A stretch of 64,000 nt of DNA from Pseudanabaena mucicola str. Chao 1806. GTDB taxonomy: Bacteria > Cyanobacteriota > Cyanobacteriia > Pseudanabaenales > Pseudanabaenaceae. The translations under genes and the position numbers were made by a program. How positions within the stretch are numbered: position 1 is the first letter of the stretch; every line of letters starts with the position of its first letter. The DNA lies in contig NZ_CP097329.1 of assembly GCF_030323025.1 (NCBI RefSeq), positions 2,077,001-2,141,000 of the forward strand, in the 5' to 3' direction. Below, piece by piece: positions 4,391 to 22,606 of the stretch. Under the pieces are notes generated by a model. The model was given only the letters and a program-made list of their open reading frames with translations, searched no databases and was not told where the DNA came from.

Positions 4391-7009
4391 CTAGCTGACT
4401 TTAAATTGAGATACATTGATTTGCAACTCTTGAGCAACTTTTCGCAACTCAGCAAAAGCTTCATTCATGCTTTCGGTTTGGGTAGAGTTGTTAGCCGCAA
4501 TCAGAGCCACGTTTTGAATGGTTTGACTTACATCCTCTGATGTTTGCACCTGCTCGGAAGCTGATTGAGAAATTTTCTGTACGATTTGATTAACTCTTTG
4601 GCTAGAAAAAGCAATTTCAGTGAGTTTTTGACGGGACTCTTCCACCAGTCGAGAGCCATTGTTTACCTGTTCTGTGCCGATTTGCACCGCTTTACCTAAA
4701 TCCTTCGATTGGGATTGAATCTCTTCGATTAACTGCCGAATTTCCAAAGTTGCCTTTGCCGATCGCTGCGCCAAAGCTCTGACCTCATTCGCCACAACTC
4801 CAAAGCCCTGACCTTCTTCACCAGCACGAGCCGCTTCAATTGACGCATTCAACGCCAACATATTCGTCTGTGATGCAAATCCACTAATTAGTTTGATTAC
4901 CTTAGAGATTTTTTGAGAAGCCTCTTCCAATGCCTTTACCTTTTCCGCAGTTTCTACTACAGTTTCACGAATTGCCGAAAAACCTTCAACGGTGCTATTC
5001 ATCACTATGTCACCTTCCCTTAACGCTTGGTTGGCATAGTCCACTTGTGCTTCGGCTTGGGCGGCTGAATCTCCAATACCTTTGATTGACTCTGTAAGTG
5101 TATGAATCCGTTTAAGGGTTTGGGTAATTGCTTGTACCTGTTGATCAGCTCCACTCGATACATTTTTGACAGTTTGCTCATTTTCCGTCACTGTTTGTGA
5201 TACGGATATAGAAGCAGTTTGAACCTGTTCCACCAATTGGCGTAAATTCGCAATCATTGAGTTGTAGGAATCTGCGATCGTGCCAATTTCGTCATCAGTC
5301 ACTTTTGCGCGAATGGTCAAGTCCCCACGATTAATGGGATCAACTTCGATCAATAGCTCTAGCGCCCTTTGTTGTAAGGCTTCCTTGGCTTGACGTTGTT
5401 CTTGAATGCGAAGTTCGGCATCTGTTTGAGCAACTTCCCGTATCGCCGAAGCGATGCGTTCTGATTCCTGTTGTTTTTCCGTAATCAGAACTTCTAACTG
5501 TTCGACCATTTTGTTTAACTCTTGTGATAATGTGCCAATTTCATCACGGCGATCGCTATCAGTTAGACGTTCTCCCATTTCACCTTGACCGATTTTTTGG
5601 GTGAATCCAGACAGGCGGCGCAATGGACTAGTAAAGGAACTTGCAATCAAGATACCGATCACCCCTGCACCAACAATAGAAATAGCACCAATCGCATAAC
5701 CAATATTAGATAAATTGGCTAATAGATCTTGAATCTCAGATAGAGGACGACCAACATGGGCAATCCCCACTGGTTTAGAATTAGGCTCGAGTAATTTGCG
5801 ATGGTCATAGAGTGGTGCATAAAAAGTTAAGTAGTCAACACCTATGATATTTGTTTCTCCCACATATTCTGTGCCTTGTTTGAGAACTGTATCTGATACC
5901 TCACGAGCTGCACGAGTACCGATCGCTCTTGTACTATCGGGACTTTTAGTACTTGGATCAACATAGGGAACGTTGGTGCTAACTCGCCAATCTTGAGCAA
6001 AGATAGTCGCAGTTGGAATATTATATCGCTTAGAAAATTTATCAACAATACCATAGTTACGATTGAGCAAGGCTCCTACTACTGCCGTTCCTACAAGCCG
6101 ACCTTTAACTTTGATCGGATATACTGCCATACTTACCAGTCCTGATTTTCCCTGTTCAGTGTCGTAGGTGTCATTGGGTGCTGGTTGCTTAGCTTCACTC
6201 AGACCTTGGGTTATTTGGGGGCGAATACCAATATTGGCTTGCTTCTCTAATCCTAAGGATTGGAGATCGGCTAATTTCACTAATTCAATCCCATACATCG
6301 GCTTACCTGTGGCGATCGCACTTTTGACAATCGGTAGGTTTGCCAAATTACTATTACTCGGTGCTACCTTCTGTTGGTAGGATTGGGGAACTAGTTCTTC
6401 TTTGTCTTTAGCAGCAAGTTGCGGAAATTTAGAAAAATCTTCATTAAGAACCAGCACATTTCCTTCGATGCTACGACCATTATTGTCAGTAATCAATTTG
6501 AAATTCTTAATCGACTCGGGATTAATACCTTCACTACTGACTTGCACTAATGGTTGCAGGATAGAGCGCTTTGCGGTGAGTTCGTTAACATCACTGAGAT
6601 CGATATTTGCACCTTCAACAGATTTAGCGATCGCCGCCGCTTCTTGCTTACTTTCCTCATTTGTCCAGAGTACATATTCCGATAAAAAGAATGAACCCTT
6701 TTCTTGGACGGAAGTTCGCAACTCTTTGAGTGATGCTTGTTCTGATGATTGAACTAATATTTGGATCACGATTAAGACTGGCAAGCCCGAAGTTAGCAAC
6801 ATCAAGATCGACAATTTCCACCTTACCCCCAAGTTATTCCAAAGTTGAGATGGTAATTTCCATAAAGGAATTTTTGGCTTAGTCGAAGTTGCCTGTAAAT
6901 CCTTTTTAGACAATAAAATTTTGGGCGTAGTTTTATCCGTCAAAACTTGACCTGAAATTTGTGTTTTATCTTCAGAAGGCGGAAGTTCAGGTTTATCTTT
7001 CAGTAACAT
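4391..7009 (-). CDS. Methyl-accepting chemotaxis protein (PilJ-like), Cache sensor
   Basis: An 872-residue membrane chemoreceptor. After a cytoplasmic N-terminal tail there is a transmembrane segment near residues 68-90 ([20 protein letters not shown]) and a large periplasmic Cache-like region of about 340 residues. A second transmembrane segment ([18 protein letters not shown]) is followed by HAMP units, including the PilJ-type motif [20 protein letters not shown]. The signalling domain has a hairpin tip around [20 protein letters not shown]. There is no GAF domain or chromophore cysteine motif, so it is not a PixJ-type photoreceptor. It lies between another receptor and the CheA hybrid, all on one strand and closely spaced. 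Confidence 0.9.
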
Positions 7010-7060
7010 AATTTTTTAAGCTGATATATAAATTATTTTCTTAAATGGTAAGGGCAATCC

Positions 7061-7094
7061 GTGGTAGGGGCAATTCATGAATTGCCCCTACCAC
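7061..7094. repeat. 34-bp perfect palindrome between the two receptor genes
   Basis: A perfect inverted repeat with 17-base arms (left arm GTGGTAGGGGCAATTCA) in the 90-bp gap between the two chemoreceptor genes. A shorter imperfect version (AGGGCAATCCGTGG) precedes it. It resembles short dispersed palindromes seen in many cyanobacterial genomes. It may form an mRNA hairpin. Confidence 0.6.
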
Positions 7095-7099
7095 GGGGG

Positions 7100-9445
7100 T
7101 TAAGCCACCTTAAACTGCGATACACTCACCTGTAAATTTTTGGCAACTTGCAATAGTTCCGAGAACGATCGCGCCACACGTTCGGACTGTTTAGACGTAT
7201 CTTCAGCGATCGCGGCAATACTATGCATCGTCTCACCCATACGATCAGAGGTTTTAGTCTGTGTATCCGCAGCGATCGCAATTTCTTGGACTAGGGAGTT
7301 TACCTCTTGACTGACTAGTGAAATCTGAGTCAATTTTTCACGAGCCTTTTGAACTAGCTTTGTCCCTGTGACTACCTGTTCTGTACCACTTTCCATTGCG
7401 ACTACAACTTCATTGGTTTGGGTTTGAATCTCTTGCACTAGCTGTTCGATTTCGACAGTTGAGGCTGCCGACTGTTCCGCAAGGGCTCGTACTTCTTCAG
7501 CAACTACGCTAAACCCGCGACCTTCTTCCCCTGCACGGGCTGCTTCGATCGCTGCGTTCAATGCTAACAAGTTAGTTTGAGCCGCAAAGTTAGCAATCAA
7601 GTTAACAATCCGCGAAATCTTTTGGGAAGTCTCACCGAGCCGTTTTACCTTTTTTGCGGTTTCGGAAACGGTTTCGCGAATCTCCGAAATACCTAACACT
7701 GTACGGTTCATCGCTTCATCCCCTTCTTGGAGTACGGTCGCCGCTACTTGCATTCCTTTTTCTGCTTGTTTCGCTTTAGTTTCTACGCCTCGACTGGATT
7801 GCGCCATGCCTTCGATTTCCGTAAGTGCCGAGTTAATTGAAGCGGATTGCGTCATCGCTTCAGTGGACACCAATCTCACGGATATTTCATTATTAACAGT
7901 GGTTTGGGTTACAGCCTGCGATGCTCCCTGCACTTCAACTACCAGTTTCCGCAAGTTCCGAATAATCGCATTGTAGGAGTCAGCGATCGTACCGACTTCA
8001 TCGGCAGTCACGTTAGCCCGAATCGTTAAGTCCCCACGACTAACGGGATCAACTTCTATCAATAGTTCTAAGACTCGACGTTGTAACAGTTCTTTTGCTT
8101 GCTTTTGTTGATCCGCCCGTTCATCCGCTTCAGCCCTAGCTTCTTTTCGAGCAGTTTCTAATCTTTCCGCTTCTAGTTGTTGCGCTTCGTTGAGATATTT
8201 CAATTGATCCGCCATGATGTTAATGTTGCTAGCCAATACACCCAGTTCATCATCACTTTCAATCGTTAGACGACCATCGAGATCACCTAGACCAATTTTT
8301 GTTACAACCTGAGATGCATTTTGAATTGGCTTAACGGCACGACTAGCAATACTTGACGCGAGCAGACCAGCCACACTAGCCGTAATTATCCCCCCAATTG
8401 CAAATACTAATGCCAACTCTCCTTGCGTTCGGAATGCAACATCCTCATCGGTGGCTAAGGCGAAGCCCCAATTTAAGTTGGGGAAATTTGGCAAATCAGT
8501 TGTAGGAGCATAACCGACTAGCAGTGATTTGTTTTGCGATGTGCTGGTAGAAACAAACACCCCAGCAGTTTTACTTTCTTGGAGTGGCGCAAGTCCCGTA
8601 AATAAACTTGTAGCCTTAGTCCCAATCTTGTCTGTGTCCTCAGAGATAAAAACTAGCCCTTGATTATCTATAACCTTATAATTTCCTGCTTTATTGATAT
8701 CGCTAACGACATCCTCCAAGGACTTCATCATGACCCGACTGCGGATTACACCAATTATTTGTTTAGTTTCAAGATCTCGAATTGGAGATGCTATGTGAAT
8801 CACAACTTTACCTGAAGATTTTGAGGTTTGGGGTTGACTGATGACTGTATTTCTTGTTTTTAAAACTTCTTGAAAATAGTCTCGATCACTATGATTTCCC
8901 AAGGGATCACCTTTTGACTGGGCGATCACATTCCCCTGCAAATCAAAAGCAGCGATACTGTCATAGACCAAGTAAGTTTCTGCATATTTCGTCAAAACAG
9001 CAGAACGCTCGGCAGCAGTATAGATTTTACGGATTTTGGGATCCGTTAAAAATGGTAAATTCGCTAAAATCTGAGCGTCTCCATAGCGCTCAAACATAAA
9101 TCGATTCAATTTATCAATCGATGAAGTCGCAAGCTGAGTTTGGGCAAAATTCGTCTGATTTTCTAAACTACTACTTGCAACTAAATAACCTGCTATACCA
9201 GCTACAAGAACAGGGAATAATGCAATTGAGAGCGCTAAAATTGTTGATTTTGCCTGTAAACTCAGCGATCGCCAAGCCCATTTTTTTGGTTTCGGTACTT
9301 GCGGCGGTAAATCATCAACTAAGTTTTCCAATGGATCGCCCAGATCTGCTTGTTCCTCGGTCAAAAAACCATCGTTAATATTTTGTGCTGCGAGATCATC
9401 GAAGTGTTGAGGTTGATTTTTAGGTTGATTACCTTGGGTCAGCAT
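7100..9445 (-). CDS. Methyl-accepting chemotaxis protein (PilJ-like), double-Cache sensor
   Basis: A 781-residue receptor. An acidic N-terminal tail is followed by a transmembrane segment near residues 68-90 ([21 protein letters not shown]) and an extracytoplasmic dCache-type sensor ([42 protein letters not shown]). A second transmembrane segment near 345-370 precedes HAMP, a coiled coil and a second HAMP-like unit ([20 protein letters not shown]). The methyl-accepting signalling domain has its tip at [21 protein letters not shown]. It probably senses a small extracellular ligand and signals to the CheA hybrid through the CheW proteins. The two receptors share their C-terminal halves but have different sensor regions. 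No GAF domain is present. Confidence 0.92.
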
Positions 9446-18107: not shown

Positions 18108-18240
18108 CTGGATCGCCCCCAATCAAAATCAACAACTGCGATCGCCCCTTCATCTCCCCACCACAAAGCGATCGCCCCCCAATCAAATATTAAAACAGCG
18201 ATCGCCCCCAATCAAATATCAACAACCAGCGATCTCTCAA
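18108..18240. repeat. HIP1-based repeat module 2
   Basis: Four irregular units, each starting at a GCGATCGC-like octamer and followed either by CCCCCAATCAAA(A/T)AT or by CCCTTCATCTCCCCACCACA. These two spacer types alternate, as in the modules at 18837 and 19534. It fills the gap between the brnT-like and mazF-like operons. Confidence 0.8.
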
Positions 18241-18836: not shown

Positions 18837-18942
18837 TTCGCGATCGCTGCTAATCAAAATCAACAACAGCGATCGCCCCTTCATCTCCCAACAAAACAAA
18901 GCGATCGCCCCTAATCAAAATAAACAAACAGCGATCGCAAAA
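18837..18942. repeat. HIP1-based repeat module 3
   Basis: Three full units starting with GCGATCGC, again alternating the two spacer types (CTAATCAAAATCAACAACA and CCCTTCATCTCCCAACAAA). It separates the mazF-like and yoeB-like operons. It is nearly the same length as module 2. Confidence 0.8.
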
Positions 18943-18950
18943 CTAGTAAT

Positions 18951-19214
18951 CTATTTTTGATAATGAAATCGGCACTGAATAACGGTGACTTGACTTTCAT
19001 TGAAAGTATAAATAATCCGATGCTCCTGATTAATGCGTCTTGACCAATATCCTTGCAAATCAAACTTTAGTGGCTCAGGTTTTCCAATTCCCTTTGTGGG
19101 ATCTTTGCAAATTTCAAGACAAATTTGAATTATTTTTCTCAATAGTTTGATGTCGTTCTGCTGCCACCAATCCAAGTCTTTTAAAGCATTCTCAGTCCAA
19201 GTAAGCCTTAACAT
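18951..19214 (-). CDS. YoeB/Txe-family mRNA interferase toxin
   Basis: An 87-residue RelE-superfamily toxin of the Txe/YoeB type: LTWTENALKDLDWWQQNDIK, KGIGKPEPLKFDLQGYWSRR, INQEHRIIYTF and the final CRFHYQK. The catalytic set seen in YoeB (Glu in GKPEPL, Arg in SRRI, His and Tyr in RFHY) is present. YoeB binds ribosomes and cleaves mRNA. It overlaps its antitoxin gene by 23 bp, which is unusually long. Confidence 0.94.
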   Translation of the reverse strand: MLRLTWTENALKDLDWWQQNDIKLLRKIIQICLEICKDPTKGIGKPEPLKFDLQGYWSRRINQEHRIIYTFNESQVTVIQCRFHYQK

Positions 19215-19458
19215 CTATTTCTCTTACCCTTCCTTGTTCATGCTGAGAAATACCTTGATATAGGCGCTCTCTATTGGCTGGGTTGCTTAATAAATACAAT
19301 GTTTCCATTAAGCTGCTATATTCTCTTTCATCCAAAATCACAATGCTCTTCTCAGGTTCTTTATAAACTGAAATAACTTCATGATTTTGCAGAACTCTCT
19401 CAAAAATTTGTGCAAATTGAGTATTGCATTCTTGGAATGTGACTTGCTGTGTTGACAT
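19192..19458 (-). CDS. YefM/Phd-family antitoxin
   Basis: An 88-residue Phd/YefM protein: TFQECNTQFAQIFERVLQNH, EVISVYKEPEKSIVILDERE, YSSLMETLYLLSNPANRERL. These proteins dimerise, bind the operator with the N-terminal domain and neutralise YoeB with the disordered C-terminal tail. It is the first gene of its two-gene operon, preceded by an AT-rich gap that probably holds the autoregulated promoter. Confidence 0.93.
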   Translation of the reverse strand: MSTQQVTFQECNTQFAQIFERVLQNHEVISVYKEPEKSIVILDEREYSSLMETLYLLSNPANRERLYQGISQHEQGRVREIDVKAYLD

Positions 19459-19533
19459 GGCTTAATAGTCTCAGGTACAAGTTTGCATAATATTCTAACC
19501 TATGATCGTTTAAAGCATGATCTACTCACATTG

Positions 19534-19596
19534 CCCCCAATCAAATATCAATAAGCGATCGCCCCTTCATCTCCTAACCACAAAGCGATCTCTCCT
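19534..19596. repeat. HIP1-based repeat module 4
   Basis: A shortened and decayed module: CCCCCAATCAAATATCAATA, then GCGATCGCCCCTTCATCTCC and TAACCACAAAGCGATCTC. It marks the border between the yoeB-like module and the GIY-YIG/DUF6884 operon. No comparable module occurs between the five genes of that operon, which supports reading them as one unit. Confidence 0.75.
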
Positions 19597-19605
19597 AACT
19601 AAATC

Positions 19606-20241
19606 TTAACAAATGGCAAGACTAGCTAGGCTTTCAATATCTTTAGCCTCAAATGGCGTTTTATAAAGCTCATTTACTAACCATAAACCGCTCTTTACAA
19701 TTTTCTCTTTAGGTGAACTGTTGCCAAGCCAGCCATCGGATTGCTTACATTCATCGCACCAAGATAATGTTGAAATGAGTTTTGACTCAACTTCTATCCG
19801 TTTTGCTTTACTTGTTACCTCAAAAACAGTGAAAGAGAAATTTTCTCGAATATATTCACTGACCTGTTTTTCAATAACTTGCTGATATACAAAATCAATC
19901 AAATTTAGATACTTATCTTTTGCCTTTCTAGTCGTAAGATCAATATCCCAAAATTCAAGAAAAGGATCATTCTGTTTGTTTAGCAAAGCTCTACCAATAT
20001 TTTTTCTGAAAATACTCCGATCTTTATTTTCATTCAAAAAATGTTGTTGCAATCTCATAAAAAGCTGATTATTCCCAGTATGAGTACCTATCCGCACAAT
20101 CCGATCCTGTCCATGAGCTTTTTCGTTTTTTTCAAACAGAACATAGATTCCATTTAAGGGAATTTTTGACTTATCAAAAGGGAAGTAATGTCGCTCAAGA
20201 TTATTTGTAAGTTTATGAACTTCTGCACATTCATTACTCAT
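19606..20241 (-). CDS. GIY-YIG-like nuclease-domain protein
   Basis: A 211-residue protein with a recognisable GIY-YIG pattern: GIYVLFE (31-37), RIVRIGTHTG (48-57) in place of YIG, RLQQHF (64-69), a likely catalytic glutamate in RIEVESKLIS (about 152) and the late asparagine in WLGNSSP (about 174). GIY-YIG domains cut DNA. A cysteine pair, WCDEC (161-165), is extra. Its start overlaps the stop of the DUF6884 gene by 4 bp (ATGA), so the two are translated together. Function is unknown; a role in DNA metabolism or defence is inference from the domain and the island context. Confidence 0.75.
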   Translation of the reverse strand: MSNECAEVHKLTNNLERHYFPFDKSKIPLNGIYVLFEKNEKAHGQDRIVRIGTHTGNNQLFMRLQQHFLNENKDRSIFRKNIGRALLNKQNDPFLEFWDIDLTTRKAKDKYLNLIDFVYQQVIEKQVSEYIRENFSFTVFEVTSKAKRIEVESKLISTLSWCDECKQSDGWLGNSSPKEKIVKSGLWLVNELYKTPFEAKDIESLASLAIC

Positions 20242-20654
20242 GAAACTAGCTCTTTCAATTTTTGTAGTTGTTTTCCAATACCTAAGCCTTCTAGAGGAGT
20301 CTCTATATTTTTTAAATGCGGTAATAGATATCTTCTATATTTCTCACCTGCAAGAAATATAAAAATTGTTTCCTCAATAGAATAAATTTCACTAATTTGT
20401 TTTAAAACCTGATCAGCCCATAGCTTAACTTCATCTGCATACATATTATTGAGAGTTAGCTCGTATGGCTCAATTTCTTGATCTAAAGATAGTAGACCGT
20501 GCTTTGCTGAGAGAATGAAAATATTATCAGATTCTAGTTTTTGAGCATATTTAAGGTTGAGTTTAAAAAGTGTACTTATGTACAAATCTTTTGCTTTTGC
20601 TCGCTGCGATAATTTACGGCTCGCACATGAGATAAGAACTATGCTTTTAGTCAT
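20238..20654 (-). CDS. DUF6884-family protein
   Basis: A 138-residue protein with the DUF6884 signature: IVLISCASRKLSQRAKAKDL near the start, then FILSAKHGLLSLDQEIEPYE and LTL. The cysteine at position 10 and the SAKHGL loop are the most conserved points I recognise; they suggest an enzyme active site related to nucleotide or base chemistry, but no reaction is established. It overlaps the preceding small ORF by 8 bp and the GIY-YIG gene by 4 bp. Confidence 0.75.
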   Translation of the reverse strand: MTKSIVLISCASRKLSQRAKAKDLYISTLFKLNLKYAQKLESDNIFILSAKHGLLSLDQEIEPYELTLNNMYADEVKLWADQVLKQISEIYSIEETIFIFLAGEKYRRYLLPHLKNIETPLEGLGIGKQLQKLKELVS

Positions 20655-20817
20655 ATCTTTTCAATGATTGATAGTACGAGTAAGCCTCGTCACTAGAAAG
20701 TAACTCACCATCTTCTACTTCCTGCATCAACTTAGCCAAACCAAAATTTTCTAAAATTTCTTCGATTATGAATTTAATTTTTAACAAAAGACTAAGCTGC
20801 TTAATGAGCTTCTGCAT
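20647..20817 (-). CDS. Small hypothetical protein, possible antitoxin-like
   Basis: Read from the ATG at 20817 it gives 56 residues: a helical, hydrophobic N-terminal half and FGLAKLMQEVEDGELLSSDE then AYSYYQSLKRYD. I do not recognise the family with confidence. The start lies 17 bp inside the BrnA-like gene in another frame, and the stop overlaps the DUF6884 start (ATGACTAA). That placement suits a translationally coupled gene. A longer ORF from 20910 exists but would overlap the BrnA-like gene by 110 bp and is less likely. Confidence 0.5.
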   Translation of the reverse strand: MQKLIKQLSLLLKIKFIIEEILENFGLAKLMQEVEDGELLSSDEAYSYYQSLKRYD

Positions 20818-21046
20818 AAATTCGTAATGCTGCCGCGATTTTTTTCTCATAATCATCACTTTGTGATTGAAACCATGCAAGTGTTTGAGGATCGATTTGT
20901 ACAAGAGCATTCAATGAAGATACAGGCTTCCACCAGCGAGACTTATTGAAAAACTCCTCAGTCAAAGGAGGAACATCGGATGTATCAATTTCTGATTCTG
21001 ACAGAGCGTCTAGTTTAGCCCAATTCGTCTCTGAGGTATTGTTCAT
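20801..21046 (-). CDS. BrnA-like antitoxin without an adjacent BrnT
   Basis: An 81-residue protein with SESEIDTSDVPPLTEEFFNK, the BrnA hallmark, followed by VQIDPQTLAWFQSQSDDYEK and KIAAALRIYAEAH, a CopG-like DNA-binding tail. I chose the second ATG (21046), 4 bp after the HicB stop; an ATG at 21070 would overlap HicB. No BrnT gene lies next to it. It may be an orphan antitoxin serving as the operon's autorepressor, or a partner of an unknown toxin in the same operon. Confidence 0.8.
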   Translation of the reverse strand: MNNTSETNWAKLDALSESEIDTSDVPPLTEEFFNKSRWWKPVSSLNALVQIDPQTLAWFQSQSDDYEKKIAAALRIYAEAH

Positions 21047-21050
21047 GGCA

Positions 21051-21263
21051 TTATGCAGCAACTTCAACATAAGCGGAGTAGGTATAAGGCTTAGGACTTT
21101 CTAGCCCTTCTTCGATAAGACCATCGATATGAAACTCTATAGCCTCTTGTATATTTTGATTGACCTCTTCTATTGTTGCGCCAGTAGAAACACAGCCTAA
21201 AACATCTGGAGAATATGCAGAATAGCCTGTTTGCGTTTTTTCTATAACTACAAGATATTTCAT
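21051..21263 (-). CDS. HicB-family antitoxin-like protein, no adjacent HicA
   Basis: A 70-residue HicB-type protein (MKYLVVIEKTQTGYSAYSPD, VLGCVSTGATIEEVNQNIQE, AIEFHIDGLIEEG). HicB proteins have a partially degraded RNase H fold and normally neutralise HicA. No hicA is next to it. It is the first gene of the overlapping five-gene chain and probably follows the operon promoter, which would lie around 21264-21330. Confidence 0.85.
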   Translation of the reverse strand: MKYLVVIEKTQTGYSAYSPDVLGCVSTGATIEEVNQNIQEAIEFHIDGLIEEGLESPKPYTYSAYVEVAA

Positions 21264-21530: not shown

Positions 21531-21911
21531 TCATCGTTCATAGGGTTGAATAATTTTTAGATTAGGGATAACCCGATAATGTTTGACATTAAAAGTACAA
21601 AGAGTTTTATTTTTGCTAATGGCACAATGAGCAATTAACGCATCTAATAGCCCGATTCCATCAGAAAGGCGATATTTACTAAAATCTGCCAAAGCATTAT
21701 CGCAATCAGCCTCAGTCAACCAAATTAATGATAAAGGTGCAGTCAGCCTAAAAACTTGATTAACTTCTTGTTTGTTTTGACAATTTTGGATTAACTCCAT
21801 CACCACAAAACCTGACACACTGGGCAATTCTGATAATGTCGTAAACCATGCGATCGCAGGTTTATGACCCCTCAAAACATCGATCAGAATATCAGTATCT
21901 AAAACATACAT
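21531..21911 (-). CDS. vapC: VapC-family PIN-domain toxin
   Basis: A 126-residue PIN ribonuclease with the acidic residues in LDTDILIDVLRG, VMELIQN and IGLLDALIAHCAI. VapC toxins cleave tRNA or rRNA in a metal-dependent way. It follows its antitoxin gene by 9 bp. A decayed copy of its middle part lies 4.2 kb away at 17290-17478 in the same orientation, which implies an earlier tandem or segmental duplication of this locus. Confidence 0.93.
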   Translation of the reverse strand: MYVLDTDILIDVLRGHKPAIAWFTTLSELPSVSGFVVMELIQNCQNKQEVNQVFRLTAPLSLIWLTEADCDNALADFSKYRLSDGIGLLDALIAHCAISKNKTLCTFNVKHYRVIPNLKIIQPYER

Positions 21912-21920
21912 AAAATCACT

Positions 21921-22205
21921 TTATAGATGTTGGCGATGTTCTGCTGCATGACGAATTTGACGCGCATATTCTTGACTATCCTTAATCTCAGGACGCGAGT
22001 TAATTAGTCCTTCACTTTGCCAATAGCTCACTAATTCTGCACCAGATCTAGGCAGATTCTCAGAAGATTTTCTAACAGCCAGAAGTTGCAGAATATATTC
22101 TGGTAAAGACAAACTAATTTTCCCTGCTTCCACAGATAGCTCTTGTTCCAATTCTTGAGGTAAATCTAAAGAAATTGTCATAGTCTTAATTTGGGGATTT
22201 GGCAT
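21921..22205 (-). CDS. VapB-type antitoxin
   Basis: A 94-residue protein with a ribbon-helix-helix start (KTMTISLDLPQELEQELSVE) and a tail, LVSYWQSEGLINSRPEIKDS, QEYARQIRHAAE, of the sort found in antitoxins paired with PIN toxins in cyanobacteria. It is 9 bp upstream of vapC in the same operon. The N-terminal beta strand would bind the operator, and the tail would block the toxin. Confidence 0.85.
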   Translation of the reverse strand: MPNPQIKTMTISLDLPQELEQELSVEAGKISLSLPEYILQLLAVRKSSENLPRSGAELVSYWQSEGLINSRPEIKDSQEYARQIRHAAEHRQHL

Positions 22206-22230: not shown

Positions 22231-22256
22231 AAAAAGCCCCGCATTGCGGGGCTTTT
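22231..22256. terminator. Rho-independent terminator of the RuBisCO operon
   Basis: AAAAAGCCCCGC, a 2-base AT loop and GCGGGGCTTTTT: a strong GC-rich stem with A and T runs on the two sides, so it can work in both directions. It lies 15 bp after the rbcS stop and 26 bp before the start codon of the vapB gene, which is read the same way. Confidence 0.92.
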
Positions 22257-22270
22257 TGGTTTGTTAGAGC

Positions 22271-22606
22271 TTAGTAACGAGCGCTGTTAGGCTTGTGTAC
22301 GATGAAGCTTTGGACTTGGCACTGCTTGATGTTGTCGAAAGCAACAACACGAATGAAAGAACCAGGATAGCTAGAACGGCAAGCTTGTACTTCGCTCAAA
22401 ACTTCTTGAGGAGTGGTGGCGTTGAATAGGGGCAACTTCCACATTGTCCAGTAGTGAAGTTCAGGAGCAGAATCTTCGTTAAATTCGATCGCTGCGTAGA
22501 AACCTTGTCTCAAGGTATACTCGATTTGACGAGTGATTTGAGCATCGCTCAAAGGGGGAAGATAAGAAAGAGTTTCGTAACGACGCTCTTTTGGTAAAGT
22601 TTGCAT
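22271..22606 (-). CDS. rbcS: RuBisCO small subunit
   Basis: A 111-residue form IB small subunit ([71 protein letters not shown]). It caps the large-subunit octamer to give the L8S8 enzyme that fixes carbon dioxide in the carboxysome. It is the last gene of rbcL-rbcX-rbcS, followed at once by a strong terminator. The start ATG is preceded by an AGGA-type site. Confidence 0.98.

Follow-up and report, generated by a model that had tools for sequence, protein, structure and literature searches.

Does a run of five overlapping minus-strand genes in Pseudanabaena mucicola form one unit, in which antitoxin-like proteins restrain an effector, or do several independent genes share a crowded site? The five ORFs lie at 19606-21263 of the window (the whole 64,000-nucleotide stretch analysed), just where the first-pass annotation had placed them. 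They and their surroundings are as follows.

18951-19458, minus strand: YefM-YoeB toxin-antitoxin (TA) pair, the next cassette (PF02604, E 5.4e-14; PF06769, E 3.2e-32).
19530-19613, no strand: HIP1-bearing repeat separating M57B from the next TA pair; 18111-18234 and 18840-18938 match the same arrays in relatives as it does.
19606-20241, minus strand: M57B, putative GIY-YIG nuclease (GIY_YIG_2-like), 211 aa (PADLOC PDC-M57B, E 1.8e-98; hhalign).
20238-20654, minus strand: M57A, DUF6884 (YaaA/DpdC-like), 138 aa (PF21818, E 1.1e-44; PDC-M57A, E 1.7e-57; DpdC, E 1.9e-6).
20647-20817, minus strand: small ORF, 56 aa, 3' end of a RelB-like antitoxin that has lost its N-terminal half (PF18506, E 3.4e-14).
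20659-20767, minus strand: 109-bp relB block, a preserved recombination edge (86-94% identity in several same-genus genomes).
20801-21070, minus strand: BrnA-like 89-aa ORF without BrnT (PF14384, E 0.014, below the cut-off).
21051-21263, minus strand: HicB-like 70-aa ORF without HicA (PF15919, E 7.7e-13).
21531-22205, minus strand: PIN-domain (VapC-like) toxin with an antitoxin-like ORF upstream, the previous cassette (PF01850, E 2.4e-9).
22231-22257, no strand: strong hairpin terminator (12-bp stem, T tail) at the boundary of the rbc operon and the array.
22271-22606, minus strand: rbcS, the conserved gene that anchors this variable site (present in 26 of the 26 genus genomes searched).

When the small ORF (stop side at 20647) is started at ATG 20817, a better start than 20910, overlaps of 20, 17, 8 and 4 nt run down the stretch: between the HicB-like and BrnA-like frames, between the BrnA-like frame and the small ORF, between the small ORF and the DUF6884 gene (ATGACTAA), and between the DUF6884 and GIY-YIG genes (ATGA), respectively. 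No HIP1 site (GCGATCGC) occurs within 19606-21263, as had been noted, and the nearest flanking sites are at 19555 and 21850. The names given earlier to the HicB (HicB_lk) and DUF6884 proteins agree with Pfam, the BrnA name is reduced to a weak match below the Pfam cut-off, and the small ORF, previously unnamed, is a RelB-like antitoxin tail. The absence of HicA among the five genes, and of a BrnT gene adjoining the BrnA-like ORF, was also confirmed. The five overlapping genes are real, but they are not one unit. We give about an even chance to a functional unit of two genes only, a DNA-targeting module of M57A and M57B that would restrict DNA containing an unusual base, its antitoxin-like neighbours being no regulators.

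M57A and M57B correspond to PDC-M57 of PADLOC, an uncharacterised two-gene phage-defence candidate that is not named in any paper of the literature we searched. Both proteins match nearly full length (residues 3-136 of M57A and 1-208 of M57B). The first-pass annotation had suspected an undescribed TA-like or anti-phage module: the pair is indeed a phage-defence candidate, but one already catalogued, and the TA-like part of the proposal did not survive the comparisons given below.

The pair recurs well beyond this genus. The M57B profile retrieved 12 viral contigs (L084-L095), and the two genes were adjacent or fused in 9 of the 11 evaluable M57B loci (L089 is cut at a contig edge; L086 and L087 are near-duplicates). 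In L084, L086, L087, L088, L090 and L091, DUF6884 immediately precedes M57B and overlaps it on the same strand; in L095 it comes directly after M57B; both domains share one ORF in L094, a clear fusion, and in L093, where the DUF6884 match is weak. DUF6884 was undetected beside M57B in L085 and L092. The closest pairs (L115-L117; 45-47% identity for M57A and 42-45% for M57B) have the gene order of the window. Among the Pseudanabaena genomes searched, the pair was present in its own species only (G000 and G522/L002), and exact-word scans with the window proteins returned a 99% identical sibling locus and otherwise nothing. A tblastn search with M57B found relatives on haloarchaeal plasmids (28-30% identity), and in three of these loci an annotated DUF6884 gene lies about 2-6 kb away, a distance for which we did not count them as pairs. 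In L191, from a distant member of the phylum, an M57B relative lacks DUF6884 and lies beside a gene that appears HEPN-like by eye. On plasmids of Tolypothrix (L031:4090-5417) and Deinococcus (L037:3644-5093), DUF6884 adjoins a gene annotated as GIY-YIG but unmatched by the M57B models, which suggests that a DUF6884/GIY-YIG partnership arose more than once.

Relatives of M57 reside in viral contigs and plasmids. Several viral pairs sit among capsid genes and outside defence islands; in both L084 and L090 a capsid-type gene immediately precedes the pair, which in L090 is followed by a cement-protein gene. This capsid-side position is typical of free-standing homing genes, and GIY-YIG is a homing-nuclease superfamily. 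The pair might then be a phage moron, or a homing-type or inter-phage competition element, in which the nuclease serves to cut the genomes of rival phages or to spread the pair and DUF6884 provides DNA recognition. We consider this quite unlikely, given that the window copy is chromosomal without adjoining phage genes, that homing enzymes rarely need a partner in fixed order, and that the association of DUF6884 with preQ0 operons (below) would be left unexplained.

What the two proteins might do is indicated by their folds. DUF6884 adopts the YaaA fold. A model of M57A from its sequence alone scored poorly (pLDDT 54) and was set aside. A natural fusion of the two proteins gave a model with pLDDT 83.8 and pTM 0.76. 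The N-terminal half of this model found YaaA (5caj) as its best match among solved structures (Foldseek prob 1.00, E 4.9e-3) and also matched AF0587 (2q07; prob 0.99, E 0.047), and a PDB profile search with DUF6884 gave a marginal YaaA match (E 0.036). The Pfam authors likewise relate DUF6884 to YaaA and describe its CxxxK and LSAxxG motifs (PMC11701544). In M57A these are C10xxxK14 and L48-S-A-K-x-G53, and both are invariant across M57A and the aligned phage relatives.

For M57B, the earlier GIY-YIG call had been made by eye; the window protein has no credible Pfam family and no GIY-YIG match in Pfam or NCBIfam, and a PDB profile search with M57B gave no credible match. The call is nevertheless supported by comparison of family profiles, in which M57B aligned with GIY_YIG_2 (PF20815) over 116 columns (hhalign P 1.1e-6, prob 91%; P 0.41 for DUF6884 as a control). 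This was the only significant comparison, as UvrC-type GIY-YIG domains gave none. Residues Y33, R50, G52, R63, H67 and E152 are invariant in an alignment of 15 M57B sequences, and they supply a GIY-YIG pattern of GIY tyrosine (Y33), second motif (R50-I-G52, with tyrosine replaced by arginine), helix arginine (R63) and late glutamate (E152). Classical GIY-YIG nucleases read 'YIG' where M57B has 'RIG'. The C-terminal half of the fusion model follows the beta-beta-alpha-alpha...beta-alpha order expected for this fold; the top 50 Foldseek matches of the fusion model include no GIY-YIG structure, and the search named the DUF6884 half and not the nuclease half. At the level of profiles, membership of M57B in the GIY-YIG superfamily is supported.

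A reader of damaged DNA joined to a nuclease could instead serve repair. M57A would bind a DNA lesion (abasic, ribonucleotide or mismatch) and M57B would nick alongside, as a minimal analogue of UvrC-type incision with no role in defence. GIY-YIG domains do act in repair (UvrC), and the study that groups DUF6884 with YaaA also reports YfjM, a DUF6884 protein of B. subtilis, among binders of abasic and ribonucleotide DNA lesions (PMC11701544). The distribution of the pair fits such a role poorly, being sparse and mobile, restricted within the genus to its own species, with relatives in viral contigs and plasmids, and PADLOC places the pair among its defence candidates. We judge repair unlikely.

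If M57A and M57B form the module, how did they come to stand behind three antitoxin-like frames? The five genes lie behind rbcS, with the hairpin terminator and the PIN-domain TA pair in between. We read the region downstream of rbcS in 24 genomes besides that of the window, or in their siblings (the sequence is short in three, and G392 ends at a contig edge), and the TA cassettes and other genes found there differ in nearly every Pseudanabaena genome read. HIP1-rich modules of ~30-bp units (18111-18234, 18840-18938 and 19530-19613) separate the cassettes of the window, and similar arrays occur at this site in several relatives. Another small GIY-YIG gene is present in the array of G386 (L064; Pfam-positive) and of G387 (L069).

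Behind rbcS in G390, G398 and G405 stands an intact RelB-like antitoxin, a 70-aa homologue of the small ORF, followed by a RelE-type toxin. In the window, the antitoxin has lost its first half and the RelE toxin is missing; M57A has its start codon no more than 3 nt from the RelE start position, overlapping the stop of the RelB tail. The M57 pair occupies the former position of the RelE toxin, behind a truncated RelB frame. The same 109-bp tail precedes other cargo elsewhere, including HEPN/Ymh-like genes that start at the toxin's own ATG in G386 and G400, the first codons of the toxin fused to a 173-aa gene in G391, and a 262-aa gene and an ankyrin-type gene in G398. The 5' edge of the tail agrees within ~8 nt in four contexts, an agreement that prompted the idea of an integron-like site, which we do not claim. 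In two further arrangements behind rbcS (L064 of G386 and L059 of G394), the N-terminal half of a BrnA-like protein is fused in frame to the RelB-like tail, giving what appears to be a chimeric antitoxin in which no DNA-binding part is obvious.

These arrays bear directly on the idea that HicB- and BrnA-type proteins hold the pair in check. HicB and BrnA occur together without M57 in G394 and G389; BrnA-like ORFs, whole or partial, occur without it in G389, G391, G394 and G386, and HicB does so in G389, G394, G405 and G406, the last with a HicA-like ORF before HicB at the rbcS site, recognised by eye. Conversely, the neighbours of the pair in L084-L095 and the ORFs read for L115 and L117, most of them judged by eye, include no recognised antitoxin gene. 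Between the sibling strains, the pair is 99.7-99.8% identical and HicB 94.8%, a gap that is consistent with local cassette exchange. The upstream genes thus read as pieces of a shuffling TA array, with HicB and BrnA as neighbouring cassettes; antitoxin control of the pair, as first proposed, is not supported by these comparisons. The first-pass annotation had staked its proposal on the adjacency of the two genes in other genomes and on the linkage of the antitoxin genes to them: in the searches run, the pairing held and the linkage failed.

In its full form, that proposal makes M57AB a toxic effector checked by the HicB-, BrnA- and RelB-like proteins. It draws on the overlap and shared direction of the genes and on the RelB-tail frame, which is still open and could yield a truncated antitoxin acting in trans. 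We give it hardly any credence: in the other neighbourhoods read the pair stands without such genes, HicB, BrnA and RelB tails exist without the pair, HicB has diverged by 5% while the pair has diverged by ~0.3%, and M57 lacks the linkage of antitoxin to cognate effector across genomes by which type II TA systems are recognised.

The nature of the target is suggested by the company that DUF6884 keeps in viruses. Genes for TGT, QueC, QueD, QueE, FolE or QueT were found in the fetched flanks of 14 of 55 viral DUF6884 loci, mostly adjoining, and M57B in 11 of the 55; L123 resembles the deazaguanine-linked loci by eye. The best phage relative of M57A (52% identity), from Fusobacterium phage phiFN37, has a DpdA-like transglycosylase gene on one side and the gene of a queuosine-precursor-type transporter on the other. 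In Rosebush-type mycobacteriophages the DUF6884 gene lies beside a terminase gene and a FolE/QueE/QueD/QueC cluster, and the DNA of Rosebush carries dPreQ0 at ~28% of G (PMC6884629). One contig (L094, the same as L122) bridges both homes of DUF6884: QueC, the DUF6884-M57B fusion, a SIR2-like gene and a nucleoside deoxyribosyltransferase gene stand in a row at 4701-8698, possibly a larger deazaguanine-linked defence operon. In addition, the authors of GATOR-GC assigned DUF6884 to DpdC (PMC11888242), which hydrolyses dPreQ0 to dADG (PMC12839542). Because DUF6884 associates with deazaguanine genes and with DpdC, we propose, by association, a 7-deazaguanine as the mark that would be recognised.

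The window pair has no phage 7-deazaguanine gene in its vicinity and no adjoining dpd genes. The host queC frame (G000:C1:1233659-1234288, L193) contains two in-frame stops (TGA and TAG), an apparent pseudogene or assembly error whose state bears on whether the strain makes preQ0. DpdC, which converts dPreQ0 to dADG, is related to DUF6884 (PMC11888242), and this also allows a reading akin to restriction-modification, in which M57A, like DpdC, edits a modified base in DNA and any DNA lacking the edit is restricted by M57B. This reading seems very improbable, as there would be nothing to edit in self DNA, and a DpdA-type transglycosylase was neither beside the pair nor detected in the genome, in a search that lacked a positive control.

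Taken with the folds and the fusion, the preQ0 link leads us to propose recognition of an unusual base followed by cleavage, as the action of the two-gene module. The YaaA-fold pocket of M57A, with its CxxxK and LSAxxG motifs, would take in an unusual base flipped out of foreign DNA and either recognise it or process it. Leading candidates are 7-deazaguanines such as preQ0, although the pocket could instead recognise other bases or lesions (cf. YfjM). M57B would then cut the marked DNA, amounting to type IV-like, modification-dependent restriction in which reading and cutting are divided between two proteins that are sometimes fused. Since M57A starts within a few bases of the former toxin start codon behind the truncated RelB frame, its expression may involve translational coupling. 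A bolder version, which we hold only tentatively and regard as rather unlikely, is that M57 targets 7-deazaguanine phage DNA: DUF6884, the subunit that handles the base when phages modify their DNA, would have been taken by bacteria and rival viruses and joined to a GIY-YIG nuclease, so that the mark that shields a phage would be turned against it, and in Pseudanabaena M57 would be among the cargo that repeatedly replaces toxins behind an antitoxin tail.

If these proposals are true, a catalogued but unexplained defence candidate gains a concrete target, 7-deazaguanine DNA, and DUF6884, a domain common in phages and plasmids, a likely role. The rbcS site would be a chromosomal location where toxin genes are swapped for cargo behind a retained antitoxin tail. 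Such swaps would account for some 'orphan antitoxins' and advise caution against reading such neighbours as regulators.

The window pair has the same two genes as PDC-M57; its setting behind a RelB tail does not belong to the gene pair that PADLOC describes. M57A shares its motif region with DpdC, over a short region only, but DpdC is ~310 aa and works with DpdA and DpdB, whereas the 138-aa M57A has a nuclease partner; the window pair has neither a DpdC-length protein nor the DpdA and DpdB neighbours that mark Dpd systems. YaaA (DUF328) of E. coli, an oxidative-stress DNA-binding protein of ~260 aa, resembles the DUF6884 half, and we know of no nuclease partner for it. Brig1 and Brig3 (PMC11078745, PMC13160076) likewise defend through a modified phage base, which Brig3 flips out, but they are DNA glycosylases that leave abasic sites and not nucleases, and we found no relationship of them to M57A. 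CMoRE / PD-T4-3 (PMC12923530) likewise joins a GIY-YIG nuclease to a modification-sensing part, but it does so in a single protein directed at 5hmC/5ghmC, with a sensing domain without known homologue and the motif GIYxY-YIG in place of the GIY-RIG of M57B.
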